From assembly GCF_001625215.2 (NCBI RefSeq), contig NC_030385.2, positions 44,107,598 through 44,171,597 of the forward strand: DNA of 64,000 nucleotides. Reading direction: 5' to 3'. The translations under genes and the position numbers were made by a program. A model generated the notes under the pieces. That model did no database searches and was not told the DNA's origin. It saw nothing but the letters and a program-made list of their open reading frames with translations. The number at the start of each line of letters is the position of its first letter. Position 1 is the first letter of the stretch. This document shows positions 3,110 through 61,153 of this stretch, in pieces. The DNA is from Daucus carota subsp. sativus. Taxonomy: Eukaryota; Streptophyta; Magnoliopsida; Apiales; Apiaceae.

Positions 3110-3258
3110 GACTTAACTGCTCGATAAACCTACCATCTTGACCACTTTTTTTCTTTAACAATTAAACCATCACACTTTCTTGGATCCCATGCATTTCAGT
3201 TTTTTTTATATCACAGGCCCAGGTCTTAGACTGGTTCGAGATGGGTCAACCAATTTGT

Positions 3259-3441
3259 TGTCATGGAAGTTAGTTGTTAGGAGTTAGTTGTTTTAGAGGG
3301 AAAAACAGTTATAAGTAGACCACTACTCTGTCATAGCAGCTTATCTGTTTTCATGAACCATTTCTCTACTGTAATTCTGTTTCTTCCTCTATTTCTCTGT
3401 ACTTCCATTACTCTGTGTTAATACTATCTCTTTTCATAACA
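3259..3441 (+). repeat. 5' LTR of the chromovirus
   Basis: This 183-bp terminal repeat matches 7974-8156 base for base. It begins TGTCATGG and ends ATAACA. A TATA-like element, TTATAAGTAG, lies about 50 bp in and is the probable core promoter. Confidence 0.95.
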
Positions 3442-3443
3442 AG

Positions 3444-3456
3444 TGGTATCAGAGCC
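3444..3456 (+). other. tRNA-iMet primer-binding site
   Basis: TGGTATCAGAGCC begins two bases after the 5' LTR. It is the standard plant retrotransposon site complementary to the 3' end of initiator methionine tRNA, which primes minus-strand synthesis. Confidence 0.93.
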
Positions 3457-3474
3457 TTCGATTCTCCGGCGAAA

Positions 3475-6400
3475 ATGGCGTCAAGCACTCGCTCCAGATC
3501 AACGGAAGATTCTTGGCGAGATATCGAAAATCGCATTCAAGAAGTCAATACGGCTTGCCATAAACACATTGAGAAGACAACTTCAGCCATGGAATCAAAG
3601 ATTATCAGCAAAATCGATCAATTAGTTTCGCTGGTTACAAACTGTGATGCTAAGATTGAGCTGTATAATTCGACCATGGAGGATCGCATACAAGCAAGAA
3701 TTGGGGGAGCCATCAAGAATCTCAATCTCGTTAAGACAGTGGGAAGAGATGGACAGATCTTAGTGGACAAATCGCCATTGTTGCGAACTCCTGGAAGTTC
3801 AGCTCAAGCCAAGGGAGACGGAGAAGGTAATAGTGTTGTGGATGGATCATTTAAGTGGCAGTTTCGTCAACCAAGAATGGAAATTCCAAGTTTCAATGGA
3901 GAAAATCCTAGGGACTGGATTCGTAAATGTAACAAATTCTTTTTACTACATCAAGTAAGTGATAAAGTTAGAATGGACATTATTGAGATGTTCTTGGAAG
4001 GGAAGGCTGATGTCTGGTTTCAGAGTATTAAACTGATTCAAGAAAACATTTCTTGGCCTGAGTTTTGTGAAGTTGTAGCAAAAAGATTTGGGAAAAAAGG
4101 GGGGTTGGATGAGCAGGAAGAATTTAATAAATTGGTGCAGAATGGTACTGTTCTTGAGTATGTGGAGAGGTTTGAAGAATTGAAGTCAGTAGTGCTGGGT
4201 AGAAATCCACATTTAGATGAGGTTTATTTCATTGCTAGTTTCATATCAGGATTAAAAGGGGAACTTAAACCAATGGTAAGACTTATGAAACCAAAGACCC
4301 TGTTGGATGCAATAGAAATAGCACAATACCAGGAACAAACTGTTGATATTTTGGTGAAGAAAGCTGATAACAAGAAGGGTGGTATGAATCTGAAATGGAA
4401 TGGAGGAGACAAGAAGAATGGGGAGTCAGAAGCTGTTACAAAAGAAAAGGGAACTAATGGGAAAGATTTGTTTAAGAAAATATCACCAGAAGAGTTCCAA
4501 TATAGAAGAAACAACCACCTGTGTTATAAATGTGGGGATAAATATTCTCAAGGGCATCAGTGCAAGAATCAACAATACACATTTATGTTGGTTGAGGAAG
4601 GAGAAAATGATTTGTTAAAAGAAGTATTAGAAGAGGAGGAAGAAGAGGGCACAATAGCAGAAGTTTCCTTGAATGCATTGTCTGAAAAGATTAATAGGAA
4701 GACTATTACCTTGGAAGGGGTAATCCAGAATACTCAAGTAAAGATGTTAACTGATACAGGCAGTACTCTGAGCTTTGTTGATAACAAGATTGTTAACAAG
4801 TTAAAATTAAACAAGGTAAAATGTGAGGGAATTTCTGTGCAATTAGCTGATGGGAGAAGAGTTGTCAGTGAGTTTTATGTGCCAAAAGTGAAATGGAGAA
4901 TACAGCAATATGAATTTGTTTTTGATCTGAGAATAATTGACATTGCTGGTTGGGATTTCATTCTAGGAGTAGACTGGTTGGAACAGTTTAGCCCTATTCT
5001 ATTTGACTTCAAAAAGCTTTATCTGAAATTGAATGCTGAGTCTGAGACAGGATCACAGATGTTATTAAATGGGAGAGTGGAAAAAGCTACACTGCAGTTG
5101 GTCAGAGGCAAAGAATTACAATTACTTAACAGGAATTTGGTTCAACAAAAGATGGCAGAAAAAGTATGTGCAGCAGAAGGAAAAACTGATATACCAGGTT
5201 CAATTTCTACCTTAATTGACAAGTATTCTAAAGTTTTTGAAGTGCCAGTAGGATTACCACCAGCTAGAAATATAGATCATGAAATTCCATTACAAGAAGG
5301 GTCTGTTCCATTCAAATTAAAACCATATAGATATCCACATTCTCAGAAAACTGAGATTGAAGATCAGGTGCAGCAAATGTTAAATAGTGGAATTATTAAA
5401 AACAGCAACAGTCCATTTGCATCTCCAGTTATATTGGTTAGAAAGAAGGATGATACATGGAGATTTTGTGTGGATTATAGACATCTTAATAAACTCACTA
5501 TTAAGGACAGATTTCCCATTCCTAATATAGATGAGTTGTTGGATGAATTACATGGAGCACAGCTGTTTACAAAATTAGATTTAAGGGCTGGATACCATCA
5601 GATATTAGTAAAACCAGCTGATACATATAAAACTGCTTTCCAAACTCACCATGGGCATTTTGAGTTTGTGGTGATGCCATTTGGATTGACAAATGCACCT
5701 GCAACTTTTCAATCACTGATGAATCAAGTTTTTAAGCCCTTTCTCAGGAAATTTGTACTAGTTTTTTTTGATGACATACTAGTTTACAGTCCTAGTTTGG
5801 AATTGCATGTTCAGCATCTGGAATTGGTTTTGAAATTGTTGGAAGATAATCAGTTATATGCAAAGCAGTCTAAATGTTCATTTGCCACTAGTTCTGTGGA
5901 ATATTTGGGTCACCTGATTTCTGGGAAGGGAGTTAGTATGGATCCAGGAAAAATCTCTAGCATTGTGAATTGGCCAATTCCTGATTCTGTTAAGACATTG
6001 AGGGGATTTTTAGGACTTTCTGGGTATTACAGAAGATTCATTAAACATTATGGTATGATCACAAGACCATTAACTGAGTTACTCAAGAAAGATGGATTCC
6101 AGTGGAATGAACAAGCAACTGCAGCTTTCAATACCTTGAAGACAGCCTTATGTGCAGCTCCTGTGTTGGCAATGCCCAATTTTTCAGAGGCTTTTATAGT
6201 GGAGACAGATGCCTGTGCTACTGGTATGGGGGCTGTATTAATGCAGCAAGGAAAGCCAATATCTTACTTGAGCAAATCATTTAACAAGAGAAACTTGGGA
6301 TTTTCTGTTTATGAAAAAGAATTATTGGCATTAGTGTTGGCTGTTACTAAGTGGAGACATTATTTGATGGGTCATCATTTCATAATTAGGACAGATCATC

Positions 6401-7944
6401 AGTCTCTAAAATTCTTGTTGGAGCAGCCTTTACACACCTCATTACAGTATAAATGGTTGTCAAAGCTACTAGGATTGGATTATGAAATCCAATATAAAAA
6501 AGGGGTAGAAAATACAGTGGCAGATGCACTATCCAGGGTTGAAATTGTGGACAACAGTGCTGAAGAAGTAGCAAACATCACAGCAATTTCTGAGTTGAAA
6601 CCTGTCTGGTTACAACAGTTTGTGCAAGGGATTTTGAAGAAAAAAGGGAAGATTTATTTGGGAGGGACTGGTGGAGTAAGGCAACAAGTTATGGAAGCTT
6701 TACATAACTCCTCTTTAGGGGGACATTCTGGTCAAAATGCCTGCATACAAAGGCTTAAAATTGTTTTTTACTGGCCAAGGATGAAGCATGATATGGTGGA
6801 CTGGATTAAGAATTGTGAGGTTTGTCAGAGATATAAGAGTGAACATTTGTCTTCTCCAGGATTGTTGCAGCCATTGGTGATTCCTTCAACACCTTGGAAA
6901 GATATATCCATGGATTTTGTGGAGAAATTACCAGAATCTCAGGGCTCTAATGTTGTACTGGTTGTTATTGACAGATTATCCAAATATGGGCATTTTATAG
7001 CCTTGAATCATCCTTTCAATGCTGAAGATGTGGCAAATGTGTTCTTAGACCAAGTTTTTAGGCTACATGGTTTGCCAGATACCATTGTGTGTGATAGAGA
7101 TAAAATTTTTACTAGCAAATTCTGGATGACAGTGTTTGATCAGTTGGGAGTAAAACTGCAGTTCACTTCAGCTTACCATCCTCAAAGTGATGGTCAAACA
7201 GAAAGATTAAATCAATGCTTGGAAGCATATCTAAGGTGTTTTGCTGGTGAGAGACCTAGTACTTGGAGGAAGTGGTTAGGAATGGCTGAGTATTGGTACA
7301 ATACTTCTTTTCATACCAGTATGGGAATGACTCCTCATGAGGCTATATATGGAGTAAAGCCAGTTCTTTTAAACATGGGCAAGCTGCAAGATCTATTACT
7401 ACCAGTGGCTCAGAATTTACTAGAGCAAAGGGAACAAATACTACAGCAGCTGAAAGACAATTTGGGAAAAGCACAGCAGAGAATGAAATATTATGCAGAC
7501 CAAAAGAGGACTGAAAGACACTTCCAAGAGGGAGAATGGGTATTTCTGAAATTACAACCATATAGACAGAAGTCAGTAGCTGTGAGAACTTGTTTCAAGC
7601 TAGCAGCAAGGTTTTATGGACCATTTCAGATAGAAAAGAAGATTGGTGAGGTGGCCTACAAACTCAGGTTACCAGACCATTGCAGGATACATCCTGTTTT
7701 TCATGTGTCTTTACTCAAGAAATATATAGGACAGACACCTGTAAGCTCAGGAACTTTGCCTGAGTATGATCAAGAGGATGTGATGATCTTGACACCTGAA
7801 AAGGTACTGCAGAGGAGACAAGTAAGTAAGGGAAACCAGACGGTGGTGCAATGGTTGATCAAATGGAAGGACTTGGATATGACTGAAGCATCATGGGAGG
7901 ATTGCAGAGTAATTACAAATCAATTTCCTCAATTCAAAGCTTGA
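3475..7944 (+). CDS. Chromovirus gag-pol polyprotein
   Basis: The frame encodes 1,489 residues. I use the ATG at 3475 because the frame upstream lies in the LTR and primer-binding site and has only a GTG. The domains in order are: retrotransposon gag core (about 120-300); an atypical zinc knuckle CYKCGDKYSQGHQC (about 349); aspartic protease with DTGS (about 427); reverse transcriptase with KLDLRAGYHQI, MPFGLTNAPATFQ and FFDDIL (about 764); RNase H with ETDACATGMGA (about 910); integrase zinc-binding HHCC (about 1075-1118) and DDE core ending YHPQSDGQTERLN (about 1240); and a C-terminal chromodomain (about 1450-1489). There is no frameshift or stop between gag and pol. The chromodomain is thought to steer integration to modified chromatin. 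The frame looks competent. Confidence 0.95.
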   Translation: MASSTRSRSTEDSWRDIENRIQEVNTACHKHIEKTTSAMESKIISKIDQLVSLVTNCDAKIELYNSTMEDRIQARIGGAIKNLNLVKTVGRDGQILVDKSPLLRTPGSSAQAKGDGEGNSVVDGSFKWQFRQPRMEIPSFNGENPRDWIRKCNKFFLLHQVSDKVRMDIIEMFLEGKADVWFQSIKLIQENISWPEFCEVVAKRFGKKGGLDEQEEFNKLVQNGTVLEYVERFEELKSVVLGRNPHLDEVYFIASFISGLKGELKPMVRLMKPKTLLDAIEIAQYQEQTVDILVKKADNKKGGMNLKWNGGDKKNGESEAVTKEKGTNGKDLFKKISPEEFQYRRNNHLCYKCGDKYSQGHQCKNQQYTFMLVEEGENDLLKEVLEEEEEEGTIAEVSLNALSEKINRKTITLEGVIQNTQVKMLTDTGSTLSFVDNKIVNKLKLNKVKCEGISVQLADGRRVVSEFYVPKVKWRIQQYEFVFDLRIIDIAGWDFILGVDWLEQFSPILFDFKKLYLKLNAESETGSQMLLNGRVEKATLQLVRGKELQLLNRNLVQQKMAEKVCAAEGKTDIPGSISTLIDKYSKVFEVPVGLPPARNIDHEIPLQEGSVPFKLKPYRYPHSQKTEIEDQVQQMLNSGIIKNSNSPFASPVILVRKKDDTWRFCVDYRHLNKLTIKDRFPIPNIDELLDELHGAQLFTKLDLRAGYHQILVKPADTYKTAFQTHHGHFEFVVMPFGLTNAPATFQSLMNQVFKPFLRKFVLVFFDDILVYSPSLELHVQHLELVLKLLEDNQLYAKQSKCSFATSSVEYLGHLISGKGVSMDPGKISSIVNWPIPDSVKTLRGFLGLSGYYRRFIKHYGMITRPLTELLKKDGFQWNEQATAAFNTLKTALCAAPVLAMPNFSEAFIVETDACATGMGAVLMQQGKPISYLSKSFNKRNLGFSVYEKELLALVLAVTKWRHYLMGHHFIIRTDHQSLKFLLEQPLHTSLQYKWLSKLLGLDYEIQYKKGVENTVADALSRVEIVDNSAEEVANITAISELKPVWLQQFVQGILKKKGKIYLGGTGGVRQQVMEALHNSSLGGHSGQNACIQRLKIVFYWPRMKHDMVDWIKNCEVCQRYKSEHLSSPGLLQPLVIPSTPWKDISMDFVEKLPESQGSNVVLVVIDRLSKYGHFIALNHPFNAEDVANVFLDQVFRLHGLPDTIVCDRDKIFTSKFWMTVFDQLGVKLQFTSAYHPQSDGQTERLNQCLEAYLRCFAGERPSTWRKWLGMAEYWYNTSFHTSMGMTPHEAIYGVKPVLLNMGKLQDLLLPVAQNLLEQREQILQQLKDNLGKAQQRMKYYADQKRTERHFQEGEWVFLKLQPYRQKSVAVRTCFKLAARFYGPFQIEKKIGEVAYKLRLPDHCRIHPVFHVSLLKKYIGQTPVSSGTLPEYDQEDVMILTPEKVLQRRQVSKGNQTVVQWLIKWKDLDMTEASWEDCRVITNQFPQFKA

Positions 7945-7960
7945 GGACAAGCTTTTTGTT

Positions 7961-7973
7961 AAGGGGAGGCATT
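7961..7973 (+). other. Polypurine tract
   Basis: AAGGGGAGGCATT lies directly before the 3' LTR, 16 bp after the gag-pol stop. It is the expected primer for plus-strand synthesis. Confidence 0.85.
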
Positions 7974-8156
7974 TGTCATGGAAGTTAGTTGTTAGGAGTT
8001 AGTTGTTTTAGAGGGAAAAACAGTTATAAGTAGACCACTACTCTGTCATAGCAGCTTATCTGTTTTCATGAACCATTTCTCTACTGTAATTCTGTTTCTT
8101 CCTCTATTTCTCTGTACTTCCATTACTCTGTGTTAATACTATCTCTTTTCATAACA
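7974..8156 (+). repeat. 3' LTR of the chromovirus
   Basis: This 183-bp repeat is identical by eye to the 5' LTR. It is followed by the second TTTGT target duplication at 8157-8161. Confidence 0.95.
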
Positions 8157-8757
8157 TTTGTTAACCTGTTTAAAACCCTCGTGAAGTAGTTTCTGGCGGC
8201 CCATTATAAATGTTTTCTATTTCAATTTATTGCGAATTGTAGCCCATCTGAACTGGGTCCTCGAATACTCGGTTTGTATATATATTCAACAGCCCGGATT
8301 TAGATTGATATATGATTATTGGTCCAGGTGAAAGTTTAAAGGGCCCAAGTCCAGATTGAATCGTGACGACTGTTATTGGTACAATTCTTTTTTACTTTTT
8401 TTTGTGCAAGTAAGCTAAACCGTGAAATATAACTATAAAATATTAAAGCATGATTTGTACTTATTCAAATCCGGGATTTTTAATCATTAAAAAGAAAAAC
8501 ACGATCTAAAGCGAACCCAAATAGACTTTCAATCATATTTGATAGAAAACAAATAAATCATAAAAACAAATAATGGATTGAAAGAATTTATACAAATTGT
8601 ATAATATTTATTTATAGTATCTTTTGATTATTTTTACTTGCAGATCGGAGATAATTTTAATATCCTATTCGACTTATTCAACAATAAAAATCAATTCGAA
8701 TAATTTCCAAATAGGATGTAAAAAATATTCACACAAAAGGACACGTTTTTATACATA

Positions 8758-51552: not shown

Positions 51553-52134
51553 CAGTTGTCAGGACAGATTTGAGAGTTCGAGACTGACAGCAGAAGCAGC
51601 GAATGTAAGACAGGCCCGAGTCAGATAAGCCTTGACTGTGTCCACTTGCGCTGTTTATAACTCGTGTTATTATATTTCCTACTATCAAATACATTTTTTA
51701 ATTGTTAAGTTAACTTGTTTTATGTTTAATTTATTTGTTTATCGGGATATTAGTCGGGAGGCAGAGTGTTTGACTCCACATAATTGCCGTCTTTGGGCAG
51801 CTTGGTACGCAATTAATTAACACTAAACAACCGTGACAGCGTGTGTCTTCCTATTTAATTGCTGTCTTAAATCATTTATTGTGAGATAGTGTCGAAGATT
51901 TTCTGACACCATGAATTTAATCGTAAACAATTAAATTACAAAACACATGCGATTTGCTAGCTGATTGTAAAATTATTTATATTTTTGTTACATATTTTAA
52001 TCGACTTTTTTCGTTGATCATGCAAAATTTGTTAAATCTATTTTGTTACGATTGACTCCTACTTTCTAATAATGATGGATCTCTACATATGTAAAAATTA
52101 TATTAATTAAAATGAGTTAAATATATAAAATTTA

Positions 52135-52933
52135 GAGCTTTTCTCGTAAATACCTAAGTCTAAAAGAATTTTTGCAAAAATACTATCATTTTTTTAAAAC
52201 AAATTGCAAAAATATTATCTTTCAAAAAAAATTGCAAAAATACGGTGGTTGCATATGCAACATTCTCTGCAACTGCTAGCAACCATATATGCAACAACAA
52301 ATTCAACTTTGAAAAAAAAATTCGAAAATAAATTTTAGTTGCATAATAAGTTGCAACTAGTTGCAAATGGCTAAAAATCAATGCTCCTGCGGGGCCGATA
52401 GCGACAACATAAAAACAACCACAAAATCAACCAATTAAGATGAAGAAGATGGGGATCTACTTCCTGTCTCTGGTTCAACCATAACAAATTGAGACGGGTG
52501 TGTGTGAATATTGAGTTTAGTGAATTCGTTGAAGGTCTCGGAGGTCAGGACTCATAATTGAAGGGCTGAACAACGTCAATGGCGTGGTTTACGAGGTAGA
52601 AGTTCGGGCGGCGTCGAGCGAAATGGGAAAAAAGGGGGGGGGACGAGAATGGAAGAGATGAGACGTCTGAGAGAAGGGAGAGAATGATGTTTACACGGTG
52701 GCGTGCGGCGGCGTGAGGTGTGGCCTGTAGTTTCAAGAGCGAGAGAGATCACGAGGAAAGTTTTGTAGATTAGAAGATGAAGACATCGAAACTCCCAGAA
52801 GCAAAGAACAAAGCGTGTACTTCTGCAAATGCTTTTATTAAAATTATAAAAAAATCGTACTTTTGCAATAATATGAGGCAGGTCGTAAGTCTGCAATAAA
52901 GATGATAAAAGGGGGCATTCTTGCCAAATTCCC
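52135..52933 (+). mobile_element. Mutator-like element, copy A
   Basis: This 799-bp element starts GAGCTTTTCTCGTAAATA and ends GGCAAATTCCC. The outer flank is TAAAATTTA (52126-52134) and the inner flank is AAAAATATG (52934-52942). A near-identical copy lies inverted at 53850-54644. The interior includes the motif GTGGTTGCATATGCAAC and a GC-rich segment (about 52560-52740) unlike the surroundings, perhaps captured host DNA. No transposase was seen. A 119-codon frame runs through the GC-rich part on the minus strand and is probably meaningless. Confidence 0.85.
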
Positions 52934-52942
52934 AAAAATATG

Positions 52943-53840
52943 TTCTGGTTATACTCTGATAAGTGATAAGTAGATTGATTTATTTAAATTACTTTTATTT
53001 AATATGTTCTAGGTACGATTAACATTTAGAATTACGGATTATGGTTGAGCAATACTACTCATTCTAAATATCTTTCAAAATAACATGGCACATAGATTAC
53101 TGGTTTTACTTAGGAATTTTTACTTAGATAATTATATATATGCAGAGTCTCATTATTATTAGTACTAGCCTTTAACCAGTGCGAAGTACGGGCGAGTATA
53201 GAATTCGTGATTTATTAATTATAATTTAAATTTTAATATCATCTTATTAGTATTTTAGTATTAATGAATTAGATTTTAACCAGATTATATTTACCAACTG
53301 ATTACATTTTTTTGGACGACTACGAATTATACCAATATCTGTTTATTATAATATAGTATATAAATAATATATAAATTATATTTAAAAGAATAATGGTGGA
53401 GTTTTTTTATCTTGTATTACATCACAAGTGTTTGTAATTTGAATGGTATAAAACTCTTTAATATTGTAAGAGTAAGAGAAGTTTGCATGTGACCAACTTT
53501 TAGTTATAAATGAGATGACCAAACCAAAATTTTGTACGACTCTTATTATATTATAGTATAAATTATTAGTATGAGTTAAACAAATTATACATAATCAATT
53601 AAGAATTGAAAAAAATTAAAAGTAATTTTTGAAATATTTAATACTTTCCCTCTGATTTTACTACCATAAACCGGTCCAATTATATGTATGATCGTAATGT
53701 TTTGCTCTAAAATATTAAAAAAACTCATTTTGCGAAAAAATAATTCAGAAAACTTACTAATAGTGTTTACCCAATTTTAAAGTATGATAGAAATCAACTC
53801 AACAATCACCAATGAATTAAAATATGATTCATCCGTACAT
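52943..53840. other. Spacer between the two Mutator-like copies, inferred to be inverted
   Basis: This is about 900 bp of AT-rich DNA without genes. It contains a Helitron-like 3' terminus on the minus strand at 53165-53195: CTAG preceded, in that orientation, by an imperfect hairpin CCGTACTTCGCACTGG. The flanking 9-mers at both inner ends show that this block is inverted relative to the ancestral order (see findings). Confidence 0.7.
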
Positions 53841-53849
53841 TAAATTTTA

Positions 53850-54644
53850 GGGAATTTGGCAAGAATGCCCCCTTTTATCATCTTTATTGCAGACTTACGA
53901 CCTGCCTCATATTATTGCAAAAGTACGATTTTTTTATAATTTTAATAAAAGCATTTGCAGAAGTACACGCTTTGTTCTTTGCTTCTGGGAGTTTCGCTGT
54001 CTTCATCTTCTAATCTACAAAACTTTCCTCGTGATCTCTCTCACTCTTGAAACTACAGGCCACACCTCACGCCGCCGCACGCCACCGTGTAAACATCATT
54101 CTCTCCCTTCTCTCAGACGTCTCATCTCTTCCATTCTCCCCCCCCCCTTTTTCCCATTTCGCTCGACGCCGCCCGAACTTCTACCTCATAAACCACGCCA
54201 TTGACGTTGTTCAGCCCTTCAATTATGAGTCCTGACCTCCGAGACCTTCAACGAATTCACTAAACTCAATATTCACACTCACCCGTCTCAATTTGTTATG
54301 GTTGAACTAGAGACAGGAGGTAGATCCCCATCTTCTTCATCTTAATTGGTTGATTTTGTGGTTGTTTTTATGTTGTCGCTATCGGCCCCGCAGGAGCATT
54401 GATTTTTAGCCATTTGCAACTAGTTGCAACTTATTATGCAACTAAAATTTATTTTCGATTTTTTTTTCAAAGTTGAATTTGTTGTTGCATATATGGTTGC
54501 TAGCAGTTGCAGAGAATGTTGCATATGCAACCACCGTATTTTTGCAATTTTTTTTGAAAGATAATATTTTTTCAATTTGTTTTAAAAAAATGATAGTATT
54601 TTTGCAAAAATTCTTTTAGACTTAGTTATTTACGAGAAAAGCCC
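53850..54644 (-). mobile_element. Mutator-like element, copy B (inverted)
   Basis: On the minus strand it starts GGGCTTTTCTCGTAAATA and ends GGCAAATTCCC, 795 bp, with only scattered differences from copy A (for example one C/T change in a CCAGAGACAGG phrase). The flanks on the plus strand are TAAATTTTA (53841-53849) and CATATTTTT (54645-54653). The reverse complement of the first equals the outer flank of copy A, and that of the second equals the inner flank of copy A. Confidence 0.85.
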
Positions 54645-54653
54645 CATATTTTT

Positions 54654-59594: not shown

Positions 59595-60074
59595 GGAGTA
59601 TTTGTATTTCATATATCATATACAGTGTGTGTATCCAATTCTTTTATCTCCCCCTTGGGCACACACAAACGCACACACTAGCGGTGTTTTTATCTGTATC
59701 TATAATCTCTCTCTCTCTCTCGAAATTTTTCTACTTCGGATAATCTCTCTCCTCTCTCTCGCTCGGTGTCCTTTGAGATGAATGAAGAGAAACAAGTACC
59801 AAAATCTGAGAGGTTTATGCCTATTTTACTACTGTTTTTTATTCATTACATTTCTTTTATTTTTTTATACATAGATGATAGATAGTTTATACTAATTAAT
59901 ATAATTTTCGTTTTTAACGCCAAAGAAATGTATATCGATTTGAACGAAAAAATAATGAGTTAAAACAATGTAATATCCGTTGACTTAAGAGTAAACATTC
60001 CAAAGTCGCCCCTCTGAATATTAGAATATAAACGATAAAAAATTATTCGGAATCGAAAATTCAAATAAATTTTT

Positions 60075-60293
60075 GGGGAATTATCTTGTATATTGTTTTT
60101 TCAATCTTATTTTCAAAAATACTACCTTATCCAATCTTATTTTCAAATCTCTAAAATATTTTCAAAAATACTACCTTTTTGAAAATATTGTCCAAAAATA
60201 CGGTGGTTGCATATGCAACCATATATGCAACTACAAATCCTGATTTCCAGTTTCAGTTTTCAAATGTCATTTTCGACCTCATCTTTGAAGTCG

Positions 60294-60335
<42 letters not shown>

Positions 60336-60869
60336 GGATTCCAAATATGAGGTCGAAATTGACATTTGAAAACTGGAACTCGAAATCAGGAATTCAGTTG
60401 CATATATAGTTGCATATGGTTGTATTCACTTGCATATAGTTGCATTCAGTTGATTCTATTGCAATCTAATGGCCCCGCCAGGGGCACCCATACTTCAGTT
60501 GGAACTTACAGTTTTCAGTTGCATTTAGTTGCATATGAGGTTGCATTTAGTTGCATATGAGGTTGCATTCAGTTGATTCTATTGCAATCTAATGGCCCCG
60601 CCAGGGGCACCCATACTTCAGTTGGAACTTACAGTTTTCAGTTGCATTTAGTTGCATATGAGGTTGCATATGAGGTTGCGTGCAACCTCATATGCAACCT
60701 CATATGCAACGGAAAACTGTAAGTTGCAACTGATGTATGGGTGCCCCTGCGGGGCCATTAGATTACAATAGAATCAACTGAATACAACCTCATATGCAAC
60801 CATATATGCAACTGAATCCCTGATTTCAAGTTCCAGTTTCCAAATGTCATTTTCGACCTCATCGTTGGA

Positions 60870-60955
<86 letters not shown>

Positions 60956-61153
60956 ATTCCAACGATGAGGTCGAAAATGACATTTGAAATCTGAAACTTG
61001 AAATCAGGATTTGTAGTTGCATATATGGTTGCATATGCAACCACAGTATTTTTGAAAATATTTTAGTGAAGGTAGTATTTTTGAAAATAAGATTGAATAA
61101 GGTAGTATTTTTAGAAATAAGATTGAAATCATGGTTATGAATAAAAAAAGCCC
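60075..61153. mobile_element. Palindromic Mutator-like element with perfect 9-bp target duplication
   Basis: The element starts GGG and ends CCC, and is flanked on both sides by TAAATTTTT (60066-60074 and 61154-61162). The whole 1,079 bp is a long inverted repeat centred near 60680 (GGTTGC gt GCAACC). Each arm contains a smaller palindrome whose centre is a TA microsatellite (about 60295-60337 and 60875-60954). The left arm alone carries a 123-bp tandem duplication (from 60448 and 60571). It shares GTGGTTGCATATGCAAC and TGCGGGGCC motifs with the 52-54.6 kb copies, so the families are related. No transposase was seen. Confidence 0.9.

Follow-up and report, generated by a model that had tools for sequence, protein, structure and literature searches.

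Exchanged 9-bp target site duplications indicate an inverted spacer between two Mutator-like element copies in the carrot genome

The DNA considered here, referred to as the window, is a stretch of 64,000 nucleotides from the genome of carrot, Daucus carota subsp. sativus. A pair of short transposable element copies, A and B, is found in it between open reading frames with ion-channel and cyclic-nucleotide-binding domains and a frame with an acyltransferase domain, which we would name CNGC and LPAT, respectively. The copies, their 9-bp flanks, the spacer that separates them and a related element, C, are listed in Table 1. The interior of element C is an imperfect palindrome with TA-rich inner hairpins. 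A Ty3-type LTR retrotransposon is present at positions 3258-8163; it has one long open frame (stop-to-stop 1535 aa), and its end repeats of 191 bp are 98.4% identical.

Table 1. Elements, flanks and spacer at the A/B locus, with the related element C (positions are those of the window)
Feature	Position	Strand	Description
Copy A	52135..52933	+	799-bp non-autonomous Mutator-like element; left end GAGCTTTTCTCG, right end GCCAAATTCCC
Copy B	53850..54644	-	795 bp; inverted sister of A, 98.5% identical
Left flank of A	52126..52134	+	TAAAATTTA (= X); partner is the inner flank of B
Right flank of A	52934..52942	+	AAAAATATG (= reverse complement of Y); partner is the outer flank of B
Inner flank of B	53841..53849	+	TAAATTTTA (= reverse complement of X); plus-strand flank
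Outer flank of B	54645..54653	+	CATATTTTT (= Y); plus-strand flank
Spacer	52943..53840	.	about 0.9 kb; inverted relative to the insertion scars
High-copy repeat within the spacer	53153..53541	.	about 390 bp; near-full copies listed are 87-95% identical
Element C	60075..61153	-	related, 1079 bp; exact own duplication TAAATTTTT at 60066-60074 and 61154-61162

Copies A and B lie in opposite orientation 0.9 kb apart and are 98.5% identical over 797 alignment columns. The alignment breaks down beyond the element limits, and the coordinates and limits given to both copies in the first-pass annotation are confirmed base for base. A begins with GAG; GGG begins 36 of the 44 left ends of the family that are described below, that of B included. 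The left flank of A matches the reverse complement of the inner flank of B at 9 of 9 positions, and the inner (right) flank of A matches that of the outer flank of B, again at 9 of 9. When the flanks are paired within a single copy, 6 of 9 positions agree (by eye), i.e., each copy's own pairing has 3 mismatches, and no 9-mer with one mismatch or less to its own left flank is present at the right end of either A or B. The recomputed flanks thus bear out two earlier statements, namely that the 9-mers are exchanged between the copies and that neither copy has a matching pair of its own. The X and Y 9-mers are themselves alike at 6 of 9 positions (by eye), a resemblance that is usual for A/T-rich sites. 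With reverse complements marked by primes, the observed order is X-element-Y'-spacer'-X'-element'-Y.

The flanks of the other family members provide the rule by which this order is read. Forty-four left ends were considered, comprising the places found by a search of the carrot's own genome with A, two further places, and element C; L042, the match of which starts past base 10, is outside this set. An end was scored as having its own duplication when its flank 9-mer recurred at a C-rich end 400-2000 bp downstream. The own 9-bp duplication is exact at 23 of the 44 ends, has one mismatch at 10 and is absent from 11, and control 9-mers taken further upstream gave an own-duplication match in 1 of 879 cases. 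For A, B, and L003, which are among the ten with one mismatch, the match is not at an element end. Three of the 23 exact cases (L022, L035, and L041) have one common flank and look like one insertion carried along inside a larger repeat. Element C is one of the exact cases and serves as an internal control. A 9-bp target site duplication is the rule in the family of A and B in the carrot genome, and the target sites of the family are almost pure A/T.

The exchange signature was defined as the reverse complement of the left-end flank placed directly before a GG-rich end at the same locus. It is present at 3 of the 44 left ends, which are those of A and B and, in L040, a spurious GAGAGA site; the control, which covers one side alone, gave 5 of 879. 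Since A and B carry crosswise-matching 9-mers and the family follows the 9-bp rule, the 0.9-kb spacer is inverted relative to the insertion scars. This conclusion stands, and the spacer inversion put forward in the first-pass annotation is thereby supported.

Neighbouring inverted copies were looked for elsewhere in the genome with the left-end pattern (428 sites, 100 of them listed) and a related pattern (244 sites, 100 of them listed). Among the sites listed, the inverted neighbour pairs less than 20 kb apart that were examined (by eye) are A/B, L034 and C8:18840695/18854707. The left ends of the C8 pair face each other 14 kb apart, the two elements show 69% identity across 453 columns, and both have retained exact duplications of their own, as expected without inversion. 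Two ends each are present at L034 and L023; one L034 element has its own duplication, which is absent from the other L034 end and from both L023 ends, and no exchange was found in either locus. A fourth inverted pair among the sites listed, on C2, has its ends 1.1 kb apart with the left ends outermost and looks like the two ends of one symmetric element.

The assignment of the A/B family as Mutator-like rests on the 9-bp duplication. The element ends are short and asymmetric; as judged by eye, what they have in common is limited to GGG and a loosely similar pattern (left GGGCTTTTCTC, reversed right GGGAATTTGGC). No transposase of the family was recognised by eye among the long reading frames of the fetched family loci. 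A search of the carrot genome for MULE transposases (PF10551) gave 813 candidates, of which 150 places were listed. Among the ends listed (by eye), the family left end nearest to a transposase is C5:27229938, which is 7.4 kb off and points away, and C4:46255976 has a transposase about 12 kb away on its inner side. An inverted transposase pair on C1 turned out to belong to a single palindromic element. The stretch from L056:2940 to L057:2497 (G000:C1:5617940-5627497) is a 9.56-kb near-perfect palindrome with arms of 4779 bp and 27 differences (ungapped), and it is one MULE with giant inverted repeats, two opposite transposase copies and a single 9-bp duplication, AACTAACAA. Separately, eight family copies (L011, L022, L024, L033, L035, L038, L039, and L041) have nearly the same 15-bp flank, TGTGCATTAAAAGTT; all are on G000:C9, seven at 24.1-25.6 Mb and one at 17.7 Mb, and they seem to be one insertion multiplied as a passenger of a larger repeat.

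The spacer itself is partly repetitive. A genome search with it gave 1374 first-look candidates, the best 40 of which were scored, and some of the listed copies of its 390-bp repeat adjoin each other in the same orientation. No full paralogue was found in the genome for the part at 53542-53849 (all 6 candidates scored, with matches to about 40-100 bp of it at five other places) or for the part at 52934-53152 (1 of 1 candidate, which is the locus itself). Because these unique parts have no full paralogue, they provide no paralogous empty site.

The relationship of A and B to the rest of the family bears on how the pair arose. In a whole-genome search with A (best 40 of 1126 candidates scored), B matched at 98%, L003 at 87% and the next full-length copy at 72%, and many other matches covered the left 300 bp only, at 89% or less. 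A search with the right-hand 299 bp, in which all 27 of 27 candidates were scored, gave B at 99% and L003 at 91%; all other matches longer than 100 bp were at 84% or less, with one 94-bp stretch at 91% and one 48-bp stretch at 85%. In a three-way alignment of 786 columns, A and B differ at 10 positions, A and L003 at 72, and B and L003 at 75. At rates of 1.3e-8 and 7e-9 per site per year, the A/B divergence of 1.28% corresponds to about 0.5 and 0.9 million years, respectively. By these alignments, A and B are a private sister pair. The only two copies of a lineage lying 0.9 kb apart in 441 Mb are not expected of independent insertions; one of the two probably arose locally from the other, unless gene conversion between neighbours homogenised both. 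The earlier claim of two independent insertions is not supported by this relationship, in which the nearest copy to A is B and vice versa (about 1.3% divergence) and the next copy is about 9% away.

One way to the observed order, to which we give an even chance, is a crossover between the two inverted copies that flipped the spacer. In this sequence of events, a non-autonomous Mutator-like element would have sat between the channel and acyltransferase genes of carrot with a 9-bp duplication of X, and a sister copy would then have arrived 0.9 kb off in the opposite orientation with a duplication of Y. A crossover between the two inverted, near-identical copies would flip the spacer and leave each copy with one scar of the other, so that A and B would afterwards be reciprocal chimeras. 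The inferred parts of this account are the completeness of both scars before the flip, homologous crossover as the cause of the flip, and the origin of the second copy, either by local transposition or through homogenisation of older neighbours by gene conversion. Two inverted copies that share 98.5% identity along about 795 bp, with 0.9 kb between them, are, in our judgement, a good substrate for such a crossover. What speaks against the crossover is that it needs a local duplication as well as a flip, whereas a one-step transposition predicts the private sisterhood of the copies directly.

It has been stated for Galileo inversions that a crossover leaves chimeric copies and a hybrid insertion leaves identical ones (Delprat 2009, PMC2775673). 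With L003 as an outgroup, 11 changes between A and B could be polarised, the 3-bp gap at 508-510 being taken as one change and position 367, at which all three sequences differ, being left out. Along the element, the derived changes fall first on A (one), then on B (seven), and then on A (three), and a crossover near position 500 would place 10 of the 11 on one parental copy. The clustering, measured against this one near relative, has P 0.033 in a runs test and P 0.067 for the best split. If the two copies mutate at equal rates, a 10:1 split is improbable in its own right (P 0.012), and the phase is uninformative where there are two copies with equal rates. For the change at position 499 and the three on the right-hand side, polarisation depends on L003 alone. 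Wider relatives, some of which are counted twice, back the B-side changes at positions 19, 73, 327, 338 and 458 and are mixed at 499, 508, 606 and 652. The order of derived changes may therefore be taken as a weak hint of chimeric copies.

Alternatively, the pair may have been made in one step by aberrant transposition, a serious possibility that we nevertheless place below an even chance. After replication, a "hybrid element" composed of the left end from one sister chromatid and the right end from its counterpart would be cut out and would insert 0.9 kb away, at Y, which would produce two opposite copies, an inverted spacer and exchanged duplications in one event, with the copies identical at birth. 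Replicative intramolecular (Shapiro-type) transposition gives the same order. The order derived symbolically for the one-step event equals the observed one, as does the order derived for a crossover, and the private sister pair with its next relative about 9% away is what the one-step event requires. For Galileo, too, the copies flanking an inversion made by hybrid insertion are expected to be identical (PMC2775673), and spacer inversions at a head-to-head pair of the MULE VANDAL21 in Arabidopsis met1 were read as alternative transposition (PMC12312487). These points are countered by the clustered derived changes with their hint of chimerism (P 0.03-0.07), by the absence, in the literature searched, of any described case of hybrid-element insertion starting from one MULE site, and by the rarity of the exchange signature, which in the set of 44 ends marks A and B and otherwise a single spurious site. 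If the one-step event did take place, a MULE made a heritable inversion in which element duplication, spacer inversion and duplication exchange were one event, and the locus would show directly, at the sequence level, that a non-standard reaction is one way for MULEs to increase in copy number. The first-pass annotation ascribed the inversion to recombination between two earlier insertions; the inversion holds, but that route does not follow from it, since one transposition event, of the hybrid-element or the replicative kind, leads to an identical order.

Two further kinds of transposition do not account for the flanks. Composite transposition of A, spacer and B as a unit is rejected because the outer flanks, TAAAATTTA and CATATTTTT, do not match. 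A reversed-ends transposition of two existing elements would, by reasoning, put one new duplication on both inner ends; each inner flank matches the other copy's outer flank, and this reaction is therefore rejected as well.

An error of assembly is very improbable. Inverted repeats of 98.5% identity can mislead short-read assembly, and a spacer misoriented between two 0.8-kb inverted repeats, in a plant that has two ordinary insertions, would look the same as a real inversion. However, the contigs analysed match the carrot DH1 v3 assembly, which was built from PacBio, Nanopore and Hi-C data of a doubled haploid (PMC10581907), the 2.5 kb of the locus are well inside long reads, and the window is without any N. 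The idea of two damaged copies whose decayed flanks match crosswise by accident can be practically dismissed: the sites are strongly A/T-rich and X resembles Y, so that a position model built from 19 exact duplications of relatives gives P about 0.001 for a single 9/9 match, but even with this A/T-rich model both matches together have P about 1e-6, in keeping with the earlier view that two such matches are very unlikely to be fortuitous, and the control for one side gave the low count reported above.

Exchanged duplications are a readable proof of inversion without a second genome, and mismatched flanks of a MULE need not mean decay. The A/B locus is small and PCR-sized, and typing of carrot accessions could tell a crossover from a one-step transposition.

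In the literature searched, the scope of which leaves out most subscription journals, no report of a MULE pair with exchanged duplications was found, and no priority is claimed. The closest parallels are found in other systems. The Citrus CitMule copies resemble A and B in having two different ("dissimilar") 9-bp flanks after rearrangement; they are tied to a 2-Mb deletion and not to a copy pair with crosswise matching flanks (PMC4334395). The inversion of the Arabidopsis chromosome 4 knob, which involves VANDAL5, was likewise attributed to a MULE (Fransz 2016, as cited in PMC12312487), but it is paracentric, concerns a heterochromatin knob, and had another mechanism proposed for it (as cited in PMC12312487). 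The VANDAL21 pair of Arabidopsis met1 is, like A and B, a close inverted MULE pair, and its spacer was seen inverted, deleted or circularised (PMC12312487). These events were somatic and occurred in hypomethylated mutants, and the reads were too short to resolve all rearrangements together with the duplications (PMC12312487), whereas A and B are part of a reference genome, their left ends lie outermost, and both duplications can be read. The argument from exchanged duplications was used for the Galileo inversions of Drosophila, among them inversion 2z3 of Drosophila buzzatii, which was made by Galileo, an element of the P superfamily (PMC2775673). Inversion 2z3 is chromosomal, with 7-bp duplications and clearly chimeric copies (53 variable sites), and chromosomes that lack the inversion were seen to carry single target sites (PMC2775673); the carrot inversion spans 0.9 kb, has 9-bp duplications and copies that may be chimeric, and was studied in one haplotype. 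The type of rearrangement is already known from Galileo in Drosophila, and here it is found in a plant Mutator-like family.
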